From contig JAAVYL010000020.1 in the NCBI GenBank assembly GCA_022791075.1, forward strand, positions 1 through 44,795: a stretch of DNA of 44,795 nucleotides, written 5' to 3'. Within the stretch, counting starts at the first letter, position 1, and every line of letters starts with the position of its first letter. This stretch comes from Lawsonibacter sp. (GTDB lineage: Bacteria > Bacillota > Clostridia > Oscillospirales > Oscillospiraceae). Positions 3,267-21,824 of the stretch are shown one piece after another. Below the pieces are notes generated by a model. That model was not told the DNA's origin. It worked only from the letters and a program-made list of their open reading frames with translations, and ran no database searches. The translations under genes were made by a program, and so were the position numbers.

Positions 3267-4208
3267 GTGCCCCCCAAAGTCTTAGTTATAAACGGTCCCA
3301 CTGCCTCGGGCAAGACCTGGCTGGCCGTGGAACTGGCCAAGGCCCGCGGCGGCGAGGTGGTATCCGCCGACTCCATGCAGATATACCGCCGCATGGACAT
3401 CGGCACCGCCAAGCCCACGCAGGAGGAGATGCAGGGCGTCCCCCACCACATGATTGACGTGGCGGACCCGGAGGAGGACTTCTCCGCCGCCCGGTATGTG
3501 GACATGGCCGCCCGCTGTGTGGACGAAATCCTCTCCCGGGGAAGGCTGCCCATTTTGGCGGGGGGCACGGGGCTCTACATTGACTCCCTCCTTTCCGGCC
3601 GGACCTTCGCCGCCTTTGACGAGGACAGCTCCCTCCGTTCCGAGCTGGAGGCCCGATACGCCCGGGAGGGCGGAGCCGCCCTTCTGGCCCAGCTGGCCAA
3701 GGCCGACCCGGAGGCCGCCGCCCGGCTCCACCCCAACGACGCCAAGCGCGTTGTCCGGGCCCTGGAGGTATGGCTGTCCACGGGCCGGACCATCACCGAG
3801 CACAACCGGGCGACCAGGGCCGTTCCCCCTCGCTACGACGCCCTCACCCTCACCCTGGACTTTGAACGCCGGGAGGACATGTGGAACCGCATCGACCGGC
3901 GGGTGGACCGGATGATGGCCGCCGGGCTGGCGGAGGAGGTACGCGCCCTTTTAGACAGCGGAGTGCCGGAGCGGTGCACCGCCATGCAGGCCATCGGCTA
4001 TAAGGAGCTGGCCGCCGCCCTGCGGGGCAGCGGCGATCTCTCCGCCGCCGTACAGGAGGTAAAGCTGCGCTCCCGGCAGTACGCCAAGCGGCAACGCACC
4101 TGGTTCCGGCGCAGTCAGACGGCCAAACGGCTTCTGTGGGGGCCTGTCCCAAATTTGAGTCAGGCGCTCCAGACTTCGACAGCATATTTGGAAGAATTTG
4201 GTATATGA
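3267..4208 (+). CDS. miaA: tRNA dimethylallyltransferase MiaA
   Basis: NGPTASGKTWLAVELA P-loop; SADSMQIYRRMDIGTAKP; GGTGLYIDSLL. Confidence 0.97.
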   Translation: MPPKVLVINGPTASGKTWLAVELAKARGGEVVSADSMQIYRRMDIGTAKPTQEEMQGVPHHMIDVADPEEDFSAARYVDMAARCVDEILSRGRLPILAGGTGLYIDSLLSGRTFAAFDEDSSLRSELEARYAREGGAALLAQLAKADPEAAARLHPNDAKRVVRALEVWLSTGRTITEHNRATRAVPPRYDALTLTLDFERREDMWNRIDRRVDRMMAAGLAEEVRALLDSGVPERCTAMQAIGYKELAAALRGSGDLSAAVQEVKLRSRQYAKRQRTWFRRSQTAKRLLWGPVPNLSQALQTSTAYLEEFGI

Positions 4209-4274
4209 TGGTAGCACTCAAAGGGCACACAGGCTGCCGGCCTCCGCCCTTAAAAGAAAAAAGGAGTGCTACTT

Positions 4275-13291: not shown

Positions 13292-13383
13292 GATGTAACA
13301 GATATGTTACGGATTTTCCCCTGACGTAAAGACATGTTTCCGTAAATTTCAATAAAAAGCAGGGCGATGTAAACATATGTTGG
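13292..13383. promoter_or_regulatory. Three similar operator-like repeats upstream of the XRE regulator
   Basis: gatgtaacagatatgttac (13292-13310), gacgtaaagacatgtttc (13323-13340), gatgtaaacatatgttgg (13366-13383). Confidence 0.55.
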
Positions 13384-13410: not shown

Positions 13411-14535
13411 ATGAAATTAGGACAACAGCTGCGGGATATGCGGCTCAAGCGGGGCCTGTCCCAGGAGTCCCTGGCTGAGGCAATGCAGGTCTCCCGCCAG
13501 ACTATCTCCAAGTGGGAGATGGGGACGGTTCGTCCCTCTGCCAACAACCTGGCCCGCCTGGGTCAGGTGTTCGGCGTGTCTGTCGATAGTCTGTTGAACG
13601 AATGCCCGAAGCAGGAGGTCCAGTCTCCTCCTTCCCCCCACTGGGAGCCTCCAGCAGACTGTGAGACCATCCCGGAGCCAGCTTTTGAACCACCAGTGGA
13701 GCAAAGGGAGCTTCCCACGGTGCAGAGCAGAACGGATCGCCGCCGCACCCTCCGGCTAACTGCTCTGGCCCTGGTTATTCTGGCTGCTGAGGTGTTCATC
13801 GCCCTGCTGTCTGCCTCGGAGCGGGACAGCAGCTCCAGCTCTGTGGGGGAAGCGGCCGCCCAGGCCACCCCCATTTCACTGGTCCTGTCTTCGGTGAAGC
13901 GGGGACCTGTCCCCTCCCCGGCAGACAGCTTTTTCTCCTTTTTCTCCCAAATGCCTCGGGAGCAACTGGCTAATCTGAGGCCTGAGCTGGCCTATCCCGC
14001 TCTGAAGGAAGAAATTCTGGCCGCCCGGCGGGACATTGTCTTTGGCAGGCAGGCCTGGACCGTAGGCGGGGCCCTGTCCACCTTTGACCAGGACTCCGGC
14101 GCTGTGGAACCCCTCCCCGAGTTTTCCGACCTCTTCCCCGGCTGGGAGGTACCCGAGATCAAAACGGTCCCCACAGACGCCGGCCCCCCCGAGCAGGCCA
14201 GAACTCAGGTCATTGAACGGAACATCAACAGTGCCCTCTCCCTCACACTTGACCTTTCCGCCGGAAAACAGCTCTCCGTCTTTCAAGGCAATGACCGCGA
14301 CGTCCGACTGTTCGCCCAGACCGATCCCCGGGACGACGCCCGGTATAATCTGGGGGTCTTTGACTCGGTTACTGGGGCTGGACTGGGGTGGGCACCCAAT
14401 CTGAGCCGCCGCTCCCGGGGTGCAGTGCTCCATTCCCAGGCCGCTGTTGTCTATAATGTGCGGTGCAGCGTATTCAATCCAGAGGACGAGGGCTTCTATC
14501 ACTTCCGCATTGACAGCAGCACCGCCCCGCCCTGA
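13411..14535 (+). CDS. XRE-family HTH regulator with central TM segment and C-terminal extracytoplasmic domain
   Basis: MKLGQQLRDMRLKRGLSQESLAEAMQVSRQTISKWEMGTVRPSANNLARLGQVFGVSVDSLL HTH; TM LRLTALALVILAAEVFIALLSA; C-terminal domain shared with the next gene. Confidence 0.9.
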   Translation: MKLGQQLRDMRLKRGLSQESLAEAMQVSRQTISKWEMGTVRPSANNLARLGQVFGVSVDSLLNECPKQEVQSPPSPHWEPPADCETIPEPAFEPPVEQRELPTVQSRTDRRRTLRLTALALVILAAEVFIALLSASERDSSSSSVGEAAAQATPISLVLSSVKRGPVPSPADSFFSFFSQMPREQLANLRPELAYPALKEEILAARRDIVFGRQAWTVGGALSTFDQDSGAVEPLPEFSDLFPGWEVPEIKTVPTDAGPPEQARTQVIERNINSALSLTLDLSAGKQLSVFQGNDRDVRLFAQTDPRDDARYNLGVFDSVTGAGLGWAPNLSRRSRGAVLHSQAAVVYNVRCSVFNPEDEGFYHFRIDSSTAPP

Positions 14536-14569
14536 ACGAAACCGATTTCAACTGAAAGGAAGAAGAACC

Positions 14570-16060
14570 ATGAAAAAACTGCTATCCGCCGCCCTGGCCC
14601 TGACAATGATGTTCACCCTGGCGGCCCTCCCCGCCGCCGCCGCTCCAGGTGAGAAGCTGGAGGATCTGGCCTACCAGAACCTGGAGTCCGCTTCTCCGGA
14701 GCAGAAAGCGGCCATCCTGGCCGCCCGGGAGAAGATTATCTACGGCGGACAGTCCTGGACGGTTGACGGATCACTCTCCCTCATCGACCTGGAAACCGGC
14801 GCTGTCACCCCTCTCCCCGAGTTCTCCGATCTCTTCCCCGGCTGGGACCTCCCTGCAGTCCAGGTCGATCCGCCCGCGGACGCAGACCTGATTCAGGAGA
14901 GCGACAAAGGGGTTAACGCCAACCTCCACAACAGTGCGGAGATCGGATTTGGCCCGGCTGCCCAGTTTGCCGCTTTCTGGGGGTCAGGGAAGGCGGTCAC
15001 CGTCACCCCCAAAACCGGCCCCCGAGCCGGCCGGTGCAATCTGGGCGTCTGCAGCGGAACTCGGCAGACCTCCCTGGGCTGGGCCTTTGGTCTGGATCCC
15101 CGGCAGCAGGCCCTCCAGGTCAGCACGGAGCAGGGCTCCTTCTACAGCCTGCGGGGCAACGTGTTCACGCAGGAGAGCCAGGGTTTTTACCACGTCAGCG
15201 TGGCGGGGGCGGGCAGCGTCCCCGGCCAAACGGAGGACAAGCCCTCAAGCGGCTATCTGGATCAGCGCACTGTGCACTTCCCGGCGGGACATACCTGGAA
15301 GGACGGCAGCCGGGCCTCTGTGCTTCCCATGCTGGATCAGGACCTATACATCCATGTGTCTCCGAGCCCGGAGAGCGTTCCCTATCATATGTCCATTTCC
15401 ACTGCAAGCACACTCTTGGCCTGGTATCCCAACCTGATTCCCGGTCAAACCGGCGCGGTATTTCACGGTTCCAAACGTCTGGTAGAGGACCTGTGTGTCA
15501 GCGCGGCCCAGGCGGCGGATATGGAGCTGATCATCTCCAGTCAGCCCACCCCCGGCATCACCTATATCCAGGCCAATCCCTTTGCGGATATCCCCCAGGA
15601 CGCAGACTACCTGGACGCCGTCCTTCACGCATATGCAGAGGGCCTGCTCTTCGGCACCGATACCAACACCTTCTCCCCTGACCTGCACTTCACCCGGGCA
15701 ATGATGTGGGCAGTGATGGCCCGGCTGGATGGCGCACAGCTCCAGTCCGGCTCCCCCTGGTATGCCCCGGCCCGGGAGTGGGCTATGGCCGGCGGCGTCT
15801 CTGACGGCACCGCCCCCGACCGGCCGGTCTCCCTCCAGGAGGCCGTGGCTATGCTGCACCGCTACCTGGGCAGCCCCGCCCCCAACCGGCCTGTGGACGT
15901 CAACGAGTACGGCCCGGTCTCCGACTGGGCCCTGGATGCCATGCGCTGGGCGCTGTCCACCAATTTTCTCTATAACGTCATCGACCACACCGCCCCCACC
16001 GCCAGCCTCACCCGTGCAGACCTGGCAGTCCTGCTCTCCCGGTTTGCCATGGTGCCCTGA
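14570..16060 (+). CDS. Secreted surface protein with C-terminal SLH-type repeats
   Basis: Signal peptide MKKLLSAALALTMMFTLAALPAAAA; NPFADIPQDADYLDAVLHAYAEGLLFGTDTNTFSPDLHFTRAMMWAVMARL and two further SLH-like repeats. Confidence 0.88.
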   Translation: MKKLLSAALALTMMFTLAALPAAAAPGEKLEDLAYQNLESASPEQKAAILAAREKIIYGGQSWTVDGSLSLIDLETGAVTPLPEFSDLFPGWDLPAVQVDPPADADLIQESDKGVNANLHNSAEIGFGPAAQFAAFWGSGKAVTVTPKTGPRAGRCNLGVCSGTRQTSLGWAFGLDPRQQALQVSTEQGSFYSLRGNVFTQESQGFYHVSVAGAGSVPGQTEDKPSSGYLDQRTVHFPAGHTWKDGSRASVLPMLDQDLYIHVSPSPESVPYHMSISTASTLLAWYPNLIPGQTGAVFHGSKRLVEDLCVSAAQAADMELIISSQPTPGITYIQANPFADIPQDADYLDAVLHAYAEGLLFGTDTNTFSPDLHFTRAMMWAVMARLDGAQLQSGSPWYAPAREWAMAGGVSDGTAPDRPVSLQEAVAMLHRYLGSPAPNRPVDVNEYGPVSDWALDAMRWALSTNFLYNVIDHTAPTASLTRADLAVLLSRFAMVP

Positions 16061-16587: not shown

Positions 16588-17583
16588 TTACCGCTCCTCA
16601 CGGAAGTAATTCAACCCCAGGGCGGCGGGCTGACCAGAGCCCTCCCGCTTGCGGACGGAGGAGGCGATGAGGACAATGGCGGTAATGAGGAAGGGCAACG
16701 CCTTGAACAGGTGGGGAGGCACAGCGTTGAGCCAGCCCAGGGCCCCAGGGAAGGCGCCGGCCAGCGCGCCGGAGTAGATCTGCAGGGTGTTGAAGAAGCC
16801 GAAGACCAGGGTACCCAGGACGGCCAGCAACGGGTTCCAGTTGGCGAAGATGACTAGGGCAATGGCAATCCAGCCATAGCCGTTGATCCAGCAGTTGGAG
16901 CCCTCAAAGGAGCCGCTCATATTCAGCGCCATATAGAATCCGCCCAGCCCCATAATCCCCGACCCGGTAATGATATGGAGGTATTTATACAGCAGGATAT
17001 TCACCCCCACGGAGTCAGCCGCGCCGGGATTCTCTCCCACAGCCCGCAGGCGCAGGCCGGTTTTGGTGTAGCTCAGATACCACCAAACCAGGGCGGCGAC
17101 AGCGATCCCCAAATAGACCAGGCCATTCTGAGAGAAAAATACCTTGCCTAAAACGGGAATCCTGGACAGCAGAGGTATTTCCAGCGCCGCAAAGCCCTGT
17201 ACCAGTGCAGGGGCGCTGGTCATGGCAGGCCAGTCCGCCCCCATGCCCTTTCCAGTGAAGAAGTACAGCCCCAGGCCAAAGGTGGTAATGGTCAGACCAG
17301 TGACGTTCTGGTTGGCCTGAAAGGTGACTGTAAGCACCGAAAATAGCAGTCCGCACAGTCCTGCCGTCAGGAAGGCGACCAGCAGTCCCAGAAGCAGGCT
17401 GTTGGTCATGCACCCGGCCAGGTAGCCGAACATGGCGCCCACTGCCATAGTGCCCTCCACTCCCAGGTCCAGACTGCCGGATTTCTCCACCACAATTTCT
17501 CCCACTGTACCATAGAGCAGAGGGATATTTACCAGAACAATGTTGAACAAAAACAGGGTCAGCACGCTGATGGGGTCGTTCAT
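16588..17583 (-). CDS. ABC transporter permease (nucleoside/BMP type, YufQ-like)
   Basis: GTVGEIVVEKSGSLDLGVEGTMAVGAMFGYLAG; downstream of permease and ATPase genes. Confidence 0.93.
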   Translation of the reverse strand: MNDPISVLTLFLFNIVLVNIPLLYGTVGEIVVEKSGSLDLGVEGTMAVGAMFGYLAGCMTNSLLLGLLVAFLTAGLCGLLFSVLTVTFQANQNVTGLTITTFGLGLYFFTGKGMGADWPAMTSAPALVQGFAALEIPLLSRIPVLGKVFFSQNGLVYLGIAVAALVWWYLSYTKTGLRLRAVGENPGAADSVGVNILLYKYLHIITGSGIMGLGGFYMALNMSGSFEGSNCWINGYGWIAIALVIFANWNPLLAVLGTLVFGFFNTLQIYSGALAGAFPGALGWLNAVPPHLFKALPFLITAIVLIASSVRKREGSGQPAALGLNYFREER

Positions 17584-18701
17584 TTCGTGCCCTCCTTTCC
17601 GGTCCGCACCGCCAGCCGGAAGCGGGTAAAGAAGTCCGCCGCCAACACAATGAAGAGGATTACCCCCTGGAGCAGGCTGGCAAAGTTGGAGTCAATGGCG
17701 GGGTAGGTGGTGCTGGCCGTTTGGCAGCCATACTGGAGGACCGTAATCAGCAGCGAAGCCACCACGATGCCCGCCGTATTCAGCTTGGCCAGCCACGCCA
17801 CCACAATACCTGTCCAGCCCACGTCGTTGGTGGGGGAGGCGGACATCACCCCGGCAGAGGACACATGGAAGGCCCCCGCCATGCCGATGAGGGCGGCGGA
17901 CAGGAAGATGGTGCGAATCACAATCCTCCCCACCCGCATCCCGGCATACCGGGCCGTATTGGGGCTGTCTCCCACCACGGCGATCTCATACCCGCGCTTG
18001 GTGTAGCTGAGATAGATGAAAATAAGTATGCACAGGACCAGCGCCACCACCAGCGACAGGTTCAGATTGAAGGGCCCGATGGGTATGGTCATCATCTGGG
18101 CGCTGTCCGGGAAGCGCGCAAACCGGGGCCGGGCGGACTCCGGATCCAGGAAGAAATTCCACTCCCCCTTGGTTTCAGCGAAAAACTGGAGAAAATAGAG
18201 GGCGATATAGTTGAGCATCAGGGTGAGCAGGGTCTCATTGGTCCCCCACTTCACCTTCAGCGCCGCAACGAACACTCCATACAGCCCGCCCCCCAGGGCG
18301 CCGCACAGGGCCATAACCAGCAGCATCAGCGGCTTCGGCAGGCTCTCTCCCAGCTGCATCCCGGCCACAGCGGCCCAAAACGCACCCATGATAAACTGTC
18401 CCTCACCGCCGATGTTCCAAAAGCGCATTTTAAAGGCCAGGGCCAAAGCCAGCGAGACGATAAGCAGCGGGACAAACAGGCGGATAAAGTTTTCAACCGC
18501 CCGCCAGGGATACCGGCTGCCGGGAATGCCCATGGTAAACATCTGCCGGTAGAAGGTGAGGGGCTCCACCCCCTGAACCGCCAGCAGCACCGCGCCAACC
18601 GCCAGGGCCAGGACCACAGCTGCGAAATAGGCGGCGGCCTGCCGGCCCAGGCTGGCATTCTCCCGCTTGACTACATGGAAAAGGGGCTGTCGGTTTTTCA
18701 T
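17580..18701 (-). CDS. ABC transporter permease (nucleoside/BMP type, YufP-like)
   Basis: IGGEGQFIMGAFWAAVAGMQ, LKVKWGTNETLLTLMLNYIALYFLQF; 4-nt overlaps with neighbours. Confidence 0.93.
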   Translation of the reverse strand: MKNRQPLFHVVKRENASLGRQAAAYFAAVVLALAVGAVLLAVQGVEPLTFYRQMFTMGIPGSRYPWRAVENFIRLFVPLLIVSLALALAFKMRFWNIGGEGQFIMGAFWAAVAGMQLGESLPKPLMLLVMALCGALGGGLYGVFVAALKVKWGTNETLLTLMLNYIALYFLQFFAETKGEWNFFLDPESARPRFARFPDSAQMMTIPIGPFNLNLSLVVALVLCILIFIYLSYTKRGYEIAVVGDSPNTARYAGMRVGRIVIRTIFLSAALIGMAGAFHVSSAGVMSASPTNDVGWTGIVVAWLAKLNTAGIVVASLLITVLQYGCQTASTTYPAIDSNFASLLQGVILFIVLAADFFTRFRLAVRTGKEGTK

Positions 18702-20284
18702 TCCTCCACCTCCTCGGCCTCTCCGATGCGGCTGTCCCGGGCGTAGCCGGCCGGCTTGTCCTCATACCTGTGGGACAGGTCCAGGGAACCCGTCATCATC
18801 AGTCCCAGTTCCTCCTTGGTGGTCTTGTGGGCATGGACAACCCCCATCACCTTCCCATGGCACAGCACCATTATCTTATCACACAGATCAATCATCACAT
18901 CCAGGTCCTCTCCCACAAAGAGGATGCCCACGCCGTCCTTCTTCTGCTGATTCAGAATGTTGTAGATGGCATAGGAGGAGTTAATATCCAGCCCCCGGAC
19001 AGGGTAGGCCGTGACAATAACGTTGGGACCTGCCTTGATTTCCCGGCCCAGCAGCACCTTCTGCACATTGCCGCCGGACAGCCGGCGCACCGGCGTCTCT
19101 GAGGAGGGGGTGACAATTTCCAGGTCCTCCACCACCTGCCGGGCCTCCGCCCGGCCCGTCTTACGGTCCACAAACGGCCCCTTGGCCTGGTCATACTTCT
19201 TCAGCAGCATGTTGTCGGTAATGGACATGGAGGGAGCCAACCCCATGCCCAGCCGGTCCTCGGGGATGAAGGACATGGAGATGCCCTTTTCCAAAATGGC
19301 CTTGGGGGACAGGCCCACAATATTATCCCCCTTGTGTATCATCATGCCGCTCTCAATCGGCCGCAGTCCGGCGATGGCCTCACACAACTCCTTCTGGCCG
19401 CAGCCGGCAATGCCTGCCACCCCCAGAATTTCTCCCCCGCGGATATAGAAGCTCACGTGGTCGATGGCCGTGGCGCCCTCGTCACCCTTGATGGTCAGGT
19501 CCCGGATCTCCAGCAGCGGCCGGGTCTTCTCCACCACAGGGCGGTCGATATTCAGCTCCACCTTTCGGCCCACCATAAATTCGGTGAGCTGCTGCTCGTC
19601 CGTGGCGGCGGTATCCACAGTGCCGATATACTCCCCCTTGCGGAGAATAGCCACCCGGTCGGAAATTTCCAGCACCTCATTGAGCTTATGGGTGATGATG
19701 ATAATGGCGTGGCCCGACTCCCTCATGCGGCGCAGCACATCAAAGAGCTTCGCCGTCTCCTGAACGGTAAGGACGGCGGTGGGCTCGTCCAGAATGATAA
19801 TCCTGGCCCCGTAGTACAGCACCTTGATGATTTCCAGGGTCTGCTTCTCCGACACCGCCATATTGTAAACCTTTTTTCGGGGATCAATGTCAAAGCCGAA
19901 CCGCTGAGTCATCTCACGGATGGCGTCGTACCGCTCCTTTTTCAGCACGGAACCCGACTTGTCGTCCCCCAGCCAGATATTGTCGGCGGCAGAGAAGACG
20001 TCCACCAGCTTGAAATGCTGGTGGACCATACCGATCCCCAGCCTCTTGGCGTCCTCGGGGGAGTTGATTACCACCTCCCGGCCGTCCACCAGAATATCTC
20101 CGCTGTCCGGCTTATAGATGCCAGACAGCATATTCATCAGCGTGGTCTTGCCCGAGCCATTCTCCCCCAGCAGCGCCAGAATCTCTCCCGGCTTTACGTT
20201 CAGGCTGATGCTTTTATTCGCTGCGACACTGCCAAAGCTCTTGCAGATGCCCCGCATCTCTATGGCGTATTGCTGCTCTCCCAT
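18698..20284 (-). CDS. ABC transporter ATP-binding protein, two NBDs (nucleoside/simple-sugar type, YufO-like)
   Basis: LLGENGSGKTTLMNMLSGIYKPDSG; ILDEPTAVLT; second NBD RRLSGGNVQKVLLGREI. Confidence 0.95.
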   Translation of the reverse strand: MGEQQYAIEMRGICKSFGSVAANKSISLNVKPGEILALLGENGSGKTTLMNMLSGIYKPDSGDILVDGREVVINSPEDAKRLGIGMVHQHFKLVDVFSAADNIWLGDDKSGSVLKKERYDAIREMTQRFGFDIDPRKKVYNMAVSEKQTLEIIKVLYYGARIIILDEPTAVLTVQETAKLFDVLRRMRESGHAIIIITHKLNEVLEISDRVAILRKGEYIGTVDTAATDEQQLTEFMVGRKVELNIDRPVVEKTRPLLEIRDLTIKGDEGATAIDHVSFYIRGGEILGVAGIAGCGQKELCEAIAGLRPIESGMMIHKGDNIVGLSPKAILEKGISMSFIPEDRLGMGLAPSMSITDNMLLKKYDQAKGPFVDRKTGRAEARQVVEDLEIVTPSSETPVRRLSGGNVQKVLLGREIKAGPNVIVTAYPVRGLDINSSYAIYNILNQQKKDGVGILFVGEDLDVMIDLCDKIMVLCHGKVMGVVHAHKTTKEELGLMMTGSLDLSHRYEDKPAGYARDSRIGEAEEVEE

Positions 20285-20300
20285 TCAGTCCCCTCCCTTT

Positions 20301-20378
20301 TGTAGGGCAAGGGCTCTGCCCTTGCCTTGTCAGGGTTCCGCCTTGTTGGAGAGGCAAGGGCAGAGCCCTTGCCCTACA
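20301..20378. repeat. MITE-like palindromic element with perfect 26-bp terminal inverted repeats
   Basis: tgtagggcaagggctctgcccttgcc (20301-20326) is the exact reverse complement of ggcaagggcagagcccttgccctaca (20353-20378). Confidence 0.85.
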
Positions 20379-20392
20379 TGCGTACCCTCTGC

Positions 20393-20463
20393 GTAGGGGC
20401 GGATATCATCCGCCCGCCTGAACCCCGGCACATGACCGGCGGGCGCATGATACGCGCCCCTAC
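20393..20463. repeat. Second MITE/REP-like element with imperfect (23/26) terminal inverted repeats
   Basis: gtaggggcggatatcatccgcccgcc ... ggcgggcgcatgatacgcgcccctac. Confidence 0.85.
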
Positions 20464-20475
20464 ATACGTTCCTCT

Positions 20476-20514
20476 ATAAAACACACGGGCCGGCCGGGAA
20501 TTTCCGGCCGGCCC
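20476..20514 (-). terminator. Terminator-like hairpin downstream of the BMP lipoprotein gene
   Basis: gggccggccgggaatttccggccggccc; minus-strand tail gtgtgttttat. Confidence 0.65.
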
Positions 20515-20546
20515 GGTTCGGGTCTGCGCATCGGCGGGGGGAGGGC

Positions 20547-21824
20547 TTAGCCCTCCTCAACCCCTGCCACGTTGTAATCCATGCCGCCGGTGATCACACT
20601 GTCCTCCACAGAGGGGCCGCCGGCAGCCACGATGACGTTGCCCTGGTTGTCCACCAGATCAGCGTCGGTCCTGACGATCTCCACCTTGCCATCCTCAGAA
20701 ATGTTATAGGACAGCTTTACACCGGAGAACACGTCCCACTCGCCGGAGACAATCAGCTCCCGGACAGCGTCGATCACCGCCTGAGTATTGGGGGCACAGT
20801 TGCTGCTCAGGGGGGAGACATCCACAAAATTCTCCTTCAGGCCGGCATAGTAGGCGGGACCATTCATGTTCTCCACAAACTTGGTGGCGTCACCGTTGCA
20901 GGCAATAGCGGCCTCCAGGGCGGTCTGATAATAGACGTTCCAGTGCCAGACGGCGGCGGTGAGGTGGCCGTTGGGGGCCTGCTCAGTCATGTCGGAGTTA
21001 TAGCCGCAGCCGAACACACCGTTCTCCTGAGCCACCAACTGGGGCTGGGCGGAGTCGCAGTGCTGGGAGATGACACAGCAGCCATAGGTGTCAATGAGGG
21101 CCTGGGCGGCCTGGCGCTCCAGGGTCTCATCACCCCAGGCGTTGATGACGTTTACATGAACCACAGCATCAGGGTTGACGGACTGGGCGCCCAAAGCGAA
21201 GGCGTTGATGCCGGAGCAGGTCTCGGCGTAGTCCAGGTTATAGGCGGCCACATAGCCGATATTATTGTTCTCCAGCTCCAGAGTCTTCATACCGGCGGCG
21301 ATGCCTGCCAGATAGCGGGCCTGATAGATGCGGCCAAAATAGTTATTGAAGTTGGTGTCGTTGGACTTGTAGCCGGTGCCGTGGGAGAAGATGACGTCGG
21401 GGTAGTCCGCCGCCTTTTGCTCCATGGCGTTGAGATAGCCGAAGGAGATGCCGAAGACGATATCGGCCCCCTGGTTAACCACAGTGTCGATGGCCGTCGC
21501 CACAGCGGTGTCGTCTCCATCCGGCACGCCGTCTACAATGATCAGCTCAGCGGGGTCCATTCCCAGGGCCTTCATAGCCGTGGTAATGCCGTTGTGGTGC
21601 TGGAAGGTGTAGCCGGAGGTGTCGTTCTGGCTGTTGATGTAGATGGCACCCACCTTGAGACTGGGCTTGTTGTCCTCCGGAGTGGACACGCTGCTGCCGG
21701 GGTTGCTGGCAGAGCCGGGGTTGCTGGCGGAGCTGTCTTTGCCGTTGCTCTTGTCCCCGCTGCCGCAGGCAGCCAGAGACAGGCTCATCGCAGCGGCCAG
21801 AGCCAGCGCAAGAATCTTTTTCAT
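20547..21824 (-). CDS. BMP family ABC transporter substrate-binding lipoprotein (YufN/BmpA-like)
   Basis: Lipobox LAACGSG; LKVGAIYINSQNDTSGYTFQHHNGI...DIVFGISFGYLNAMEQKAADYPDVIFSHGTGYKSN. Confidence 0.94.
   Translation of the reverse strand: MKKILALALAAAMSLSLAACGSGDKSNGKDSSASNPGSASNPGSSVSTPEDNKPSLKVGAIYINSQNDTSGYTFQHHNGITTAMKALGMDPAELIIVDGVPDGDDTAVATAIDTVVNQGADIVFGISFGYLNAMEQKAADYPDVIFSHGTGYKSNDTNFNNYFGRIYQARYLAGIAAGMKTLELENNNIGYVAAYNLDYAETCSGINAFALGAQSVNPDAVVHVNVINAWGDETLERQAAQALIDTYGCCVISQHCDSAQPQLVAQENGVFGCGYNSDMTEQAPNGHLTAAVWHWNVYYQTALEAAIACNGDATKFVENMNGPAYYAGLKENFVDVSPLSSNCAPNTQAVIDAVRELIVSGEWDVFSGVKLSYNISEDGKVEIVRTDADLVDNQGNVIVAAGGPSVEDSVITGGMDYNVAGVEEG

Follow-up and report, generated by a model that had tools for sequence, protein, structure and literature searches.

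A predicted membrane-bound XRE regulator and the adjacent SLH protein share an apparently undescribed module that recurs on and beside other signalling proteins

Two adjacent genes of Lawsonibacter sp., one for an XRE-family protein with a single transmembrane (TM) helix and the other for an exported protein with an SLH domain, encode homologous copies of a module of ~190 residues that, judging from our searches, is undescribed. The module sits on or beside membrane signalling proteins of three unrelated types, and an operator-like inverted repeat lies ahead of the pair. The reading that we favour, and to which we would give about an even chance, is that the two genes are one operon, encoding a one-component regulator in the membrane and a partner displayed on the wall, both with the same sensory or binding module. 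The window analysed here is a stretch of 44,795 nucleotides, taken from a 2.0 Mb genome (G000) that is 73% complete. The host of the pair is a gut-type bacterium.

The features of the pair are collected in Table 1. Residues 184-374 of the XRE protein and 31-218 of the SLH protein are identical at 72 of 193 positions (37%, BLASTP E 6e-37), so that their likeness is one of homology and not of chance, and over nucleotides 14101-14147 and 14801-14847 the two genes agree by eye at ~40 of 47 positions. A recent local duplication as the origin of the pair is not supported, on account of the 37% identity and the lack of a sister grouping in the tree, where the module copies of the genus group together (93/96). 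Besides HTH_3 and related HTH families, Pfam recognised only SLH in the two proteins and found no match in the region that they share. The one strong TM segment of the XRE protein, in the hydropathy window from residue 116, comes after the stretch RTDRRRTLR; from these basic residues we infer an N-in/C-out orientation, with ~240 residues predicted to lie outside the cell. The signal peptide of the SLH protein was judged typical by eye, and behind the only SLH repeat above the Pfam cut-off two degenerate SLH-like repeats can be made out, also by eye, to position 16057; three repeats are usual in surface proteins anchored by SLH. As the intergenic gap is short and holds no terminator, the two genes probably share one transcript.

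These results confirm what the initial annotation had observed: an XRE protein made up of an HTH, a TM helix and a domain repeated in the next gene (Pfam, hydropathy, BLASTP), and the local nucleotide similarity. The topology check that it proposed gave a single TM helix behind a basic stretch. The SLH gene does adjoin, although the gap is 34 nt and not the 35 nt that had been given. Upstream of the pair are genes for Mfd and a PrsA-like lipoprotein, neither of which looks related, and downstream, on the minus strand (16588-21824), runs a convergent and seemingly unrelated operon that resembles a BMP-type nucleoside ABC transporter.

Table 1. Coordinates of the gene pair, its domains and its candidate regulatory sites in the window.
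Feature	Position	Strand	Basis or remark
Candidate operator TGTAACAGATATGTTAC, inverted repeat GTAACA-N4-TGTTAC	13294..13310	+	
Extra half-site TGTAAA	13368-13373		
XRE-family HTH gene, 374 aa	13411..14535	+	HTH_3, one TM, shared module as predicted outer domain
HTH_3 (XRE) DNA-binding domain	13429..13590	+	Pfam PF01381, residues 7-60, E 4.5e-16
Single TM helix, residues 116-134	13756..13812	+	Hydropathy 2.47, basic residues ahead
Shared module (N-domain + beta sandwich), XRE outer domain	13960..14532	+	BLASTP, 16-member alignment, AlphaFold2 model
Intergenic gap, 34 nt	14536..14569	+	Ribosome-binding-like AAAGGAAGAAG, terminator absent
Exported protein, 496 aa	14570..16060	+	Signal peptide, module, second beta sandwich, SLH
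Shared module within SLH protein	14645..15223	+	BLASTP, alignment
Second beta-sandwich half, weak copy, SLH-protein residues ~223-325	15236..15544	+	hhalign E 5e-4; BLASTP secondary match E 0.001
SLH domain, residues 337-377	15578..15700	+	Pfam PF00395, E 5.4e-6

In an alignment of 16 module members the N-domain is conserved, with IL.AR..II, a W, a G and P.F..LFP.W invariant or nearly so, and the beta-sandwich behind it is divergent. The N-domain is also found without the sandwich, and even there its core W..G..P.F..FP.W is kept. The AlphaFold2 model (mean pLDDT 83.8) consists of three helices and a hairpin followed by eight strands, from which the module is predicted to join a novel helix-hairpin N-domain to a generic eight-strand beta sandwich. 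Searched as sequences and as a profile, the 16 members matched no curated family in Pfam or NCBIfam and no solved chain among the PDB sequences. The best Foldseek matches, at E about 1e-3, were generic beta-sandwiches (a calpain C2-like domain and the jelly roll of Tk-SP) and appear confined to the sandwich half. The initial annotation recognised no named family for the domain, and these searches bear that out; a literature search likewise found no description of the module or of the arrangement.

The distribution of the module is patchy. Within the genus it is present in 6 of 64 genomes and within the family in 20 of 401, with further copies in Paenibacillus and Halalkalibacter. That it might be common across the phylum was rejected, a phylum-wide sample having it in 2 of 398 genomes, one of them the window's own. 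This genome holds a third copy (C22:3707-4267) in an exported protein, and the gene order there is an XRE-TM protein (161 aa), a small exported protein (132 aa) and the module protein (235 aa). A contig labelled Candidatus Micrarchaeota (L019, JAHKLX010000103.1) encodes a module protein that resembles the Bacillota ones; the contig is probably mis-binned.

At 21 of 34 module loci the module is fused or adjacent to signalling genes: XRE-TM genes at four, BlaI/BlaR1-type M56 systems at seven and ECF sigma factors with TM anti-sigma-like proteins at ten. The XRE-TM cases are the window and three further loci, C22, L028 (genome G211) and L044 (genome G342), where the XRE-TM gene adjoins an exported module gene. 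In four Bacillales loci (L020-L023, of which L021-L023 were assigned by similarity to L020) an exported module gene is divergent from BlaI-M56; at L033 two M56 proteins carry a fused module with a BlaI gene alongside, and L082 and L045 are also of the BlaI/M56 type. Fusion to a TM protein directly after an ECF sigma gene was found at L024, L026, L027, L077 and L078, and adjacency to an ECF sigma/TM protein at L025, L029, L030 (by eye), L031 and L079; the anti-sigma label reflects position and topology, since only two of the adjacent proteins matched Pfam (DUF4367, DUF4179). No regulator linkage was seen at 13 of the 34 loci, and most module loci have no XRE gene. The chance of linkage at 21 of 34 is P 3e-10 under generous densities per genome (43 matches to HTH_3, at most 11 to M56 and at most 31 to sigma r2, with every XRE counted). 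In its linkage the module thus behaves like an input domain, and these gene contexts are good evidence, and our principal evidence, that it would act as one at the cell surface. At L045 (484-2121) the BlaR1-type M56 protein has a peptidase M23 domain behind it, and the next protein carries the module's beta-sandwich half. SLH genes (L077:6358-7701 and L032:3162-4805) are also found in the vicinity of module genes in a further two genomes.

One rival reading takes the copy in the XRE protein to be the product of domain shuffling, a generic beta-sandwich of surface proteins that plays no part in sensing. It would fit the patchy distribution, the occurrence of the module in unlinked exported proteins and the fact that its sandwich half has only generic structural neighbours. 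We regard this as very improbable, because linkage or fusion to three signalling systems is far above chance and the N-domain core is conserved even where the sandwich is absent.

The exact pair of a module-bearing XRE protein and a module-SLH protein was seen in the window's genome only, with one occurrence each of the XRE-module and SLH-module fusions, and so is best regarded as a local variant of a wider arrangement. The interpretation offered by the initial annotation, surface sensing by a membrane regulator, is accordingly supported in part: the module's place on or beside three signalling systems speaks for it, and the confinement of the exact pair to one genome against it.

According to our favoured reading of an operon whose two products share one module, the XRE domain would bind DNA while tethered to the membrane. 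Its target is probably its own promoter, at the repeat 13294-13310, which would make the protein autoregulatory, and the TM helix would put the module of the XRE protein outside. There the module would recognise a ligand of the envelope or the surroundings, which would alter DNA binding by the XRE domain and hence the amount of the SLH partner. That partner, with its own copy of the module displayed on the wall, would in turn bind or buffer the ligand, sensor and effector using one recognition module in common. With a small operon, one candidate operator and a single exported partner, the scheme is directly testable.

The XRE protein combines a DNA-binding domain with at least one TM helix in one polypeptide. 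As a putative regulator that would control transcription from the membrane on an outside signal, it would belong with the transmembrane transcription regulators (TTRs), the undescribed module being new. ToxR/CadC-like one-component TTRs likewise have a DNA-binding domain, a single TM helix and an outer domain in one polypeptide (PMC10269533), whereas the window regulator has an undescribed outer domain, of which the next gene encodes a second copy, and the wider XRE-TM class has tiny tails and exported partners. The terms XRE and HTH_3 are absent from the main text of the TTR survey (PMC10269533).

The closest working analogies for the favoured reading are RsgI and BlaR1. RsgI anti-sigma factors of Clostridium thermocellum have carbohydrate-binding or hydrolase-like ectodomains (CBM3, PA14 or GH10) and control cellulosome genes (PMC4711584). 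As membrane regulators they display outside a module of the type found in the surface proteins under their control. RsgI, however, binds a sigma-I factor, whereas the window regulator itself carries a DNA-binding domain, an XRE HTH, and inspection by eye of the ORFs surrounding the pair revealed no sigma gene. The carbohydrate ligand of RsgI is known, that of the module hypothetical. The BlaR1 sensor is homologous to class D beta-lactamases (PMC5957439), and the resemblance to BlaR1/BlaI (PMC9834060, PMC5957439) lies in a sensor homologous to an exported protein and in the fusion of module relatives to M56 BlaR1-type proteins. In contrast to BlaR1/BlaI, the window has no protease or separate repressor (Pfam found no M56 match in the pair; module relatives have M56 and BlaI), and the module is unrelated by sequence to beta-lactamases.

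With the small exported protein of C22 as query, a second exported beta-sandwich family was found at 24 places in 21 of 251 genomes, and an XRE-TM gene lies directly upstream at 18 of the 24. Its domain is fused behind the XRE TM helix in L107, behind a truncated HTH in L098 and, with a weak domain match (E 3.5e-6), behind an M56 protein in L108 (Pfam M56 E 2.9e-51). The binomial for this family was computed with 19 of 22; 18 adjacent and two fused cases were counted among the 24, which leaves the conclusion unaltered. Fusion of partner and regulator, as also seen in the window, argues that both act together outside. The model of the second family (pLDDT 89.7) is similar to GOLD domains of TMED/p24 proteins and to the jelly roll of Tk-SP (E 5e-4 to 3e-3, TM-score about 0.55-0.6); sequence identity to GOLD-like or pre-peptidase C-terminal-like beta sandwiches is ~10%, and Pfam gave no usable match. 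That this partner is a diverged form of the module's beta-sandwich was not supported (hhalign E 0.02, probability 2%). At L106 (892-1884) a small exported beta-sandwich is fused to a protein with a metzincin-like HExxHxxGxxH motif (HELTHNLGVNNH). What lies outside in the short-tailed XRE-TM partners of this family is an acidic tail of roughly 25-45 residues, in many cases with an end like EEFDLVPWE or EEFSIEGW.

The recurrence of XRE-TM genes with exported partners, fusions included, suggests that the window pair is a variant of this general plan in which the regulator has captured the module. Co-location in other genomes, which the initial annotation wished to see checked, thus fails for the exact pair but holds for XRE-TM genes with an exported module gene (three further loci) or with an exported partner (18 of 24 places). 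Among the other XRE genes of the window's genome, none of 14 regions showed the plan of a single TM helix, an outer tail and an exported partner; one of this genome's XRE proteins, with a TM segment near its C-terminus, stands beside an SLH-GH25 gene (L113:2561-4770).

A broader proposal, which we put forward tentatively and hold to be somewhat short of an even chance, is that there is an undescribed class of bacterial surface signalling. In it, XRE-TM regulators whose outer tail is short and acidic would read a beta-sandwich co-receptor exported from the same autoregulated operon, and two new exported modules would be exchanged as inputs between systems of the XRE-TM, BlaR1 and ECF sigma types. 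In the window the co-receptor would have been captured in cis, with a second copy anchored to the wall. If true, an undescribed input module would serve three signalling chassis, and Bacillota, in which little work has been done on membrane one-component systems, would possess a recurring family of membrane regulators that have exported partners. The chief rival to the favoured reading is a split receptor, in which the exported partner is the sensor and signals by docking to the tail that the XRE-TM protein exposes outside, in trans for short-tailed regulators and in cis in the window, with the SLH copy as a wall-anchored competitor or a reporter of wall state. The short acidic tails followed by exported beta-sandwich proteins at those 18 places point to it, as does L107, the one intact fusion, which has no separate partner downstream. 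We nevertheless think it unlikely, as the window has both cis and trans copies, superfluous for the simple version, and the module also accompanies M56 and sigma systems, which have no such tails.

Perfect copies of GTAACA-N4-TGTTAC number only three in the 2.0 Mb genome, two of them upstream of the window XRE-TM gene and the C22 XRE-TM operon. Across 20 non-redundant XRE-TM promoters, TGTAAM on one strand is present in 19, compared with 3.5 for shuffled sequences and 17% for upstream regions used as controls. Inverted repeats with arms of at least 7 are present in 11, compared with 1.9 for shuffled sequences and 20% for the controls. The exact palindrome TGTAAACC-N6-GGTTTACA occurs eight times in 401 genomes and its reversed control not at all; six occurrences precede XRE-TM/partner operons, and the other two have matching contexts in two other genomes with no XRE gene alongside. 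At L028 there are two tandem XRE-TM/partner units whose promoters, upstream of 523-1011 and 3715-4212, are nearly identical, which suggests a recent duplication of the unit.

The window site, TGTAAC-N5-TGTTAC, is related to the family palindrome yet different from it. We read its inverted repeat as a putative XRE operator, a WalR-type direct repeat being the other possibility. The WalR box has the consensus TGTWAH-N5-TGTWAH, which the window site fits. A WalR-like response regulator might then own the site, the pair being an ordinary target of cell-wall homeostasis and the XRE protein structural (RodZ-like) or minor; direct repeats with an 11-bp period in the XRE promoter of G342, and the genome's third perfect site, ahead of a small gene and a wall-hydrolase gene, would agree. 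This explanation seems improbable to us, since the palindromes found throughout the family are particular to XRE-TM promoters and favour an XRE operator, and no RodZ-type family matched: HTH_3 was best, HTH_25 fell under the cut-off (E 0.018) and Pfam found no domain after the TM helix. The third perfect site (L088:2756-2771, on contig C83) has a second TGTAAC 11 bp away and lies just after rpoC, upstream of a small gene and then an SH3-NlpC/P60 wall hydrolase gene; it may be a member of the same regulon or a WalR box.
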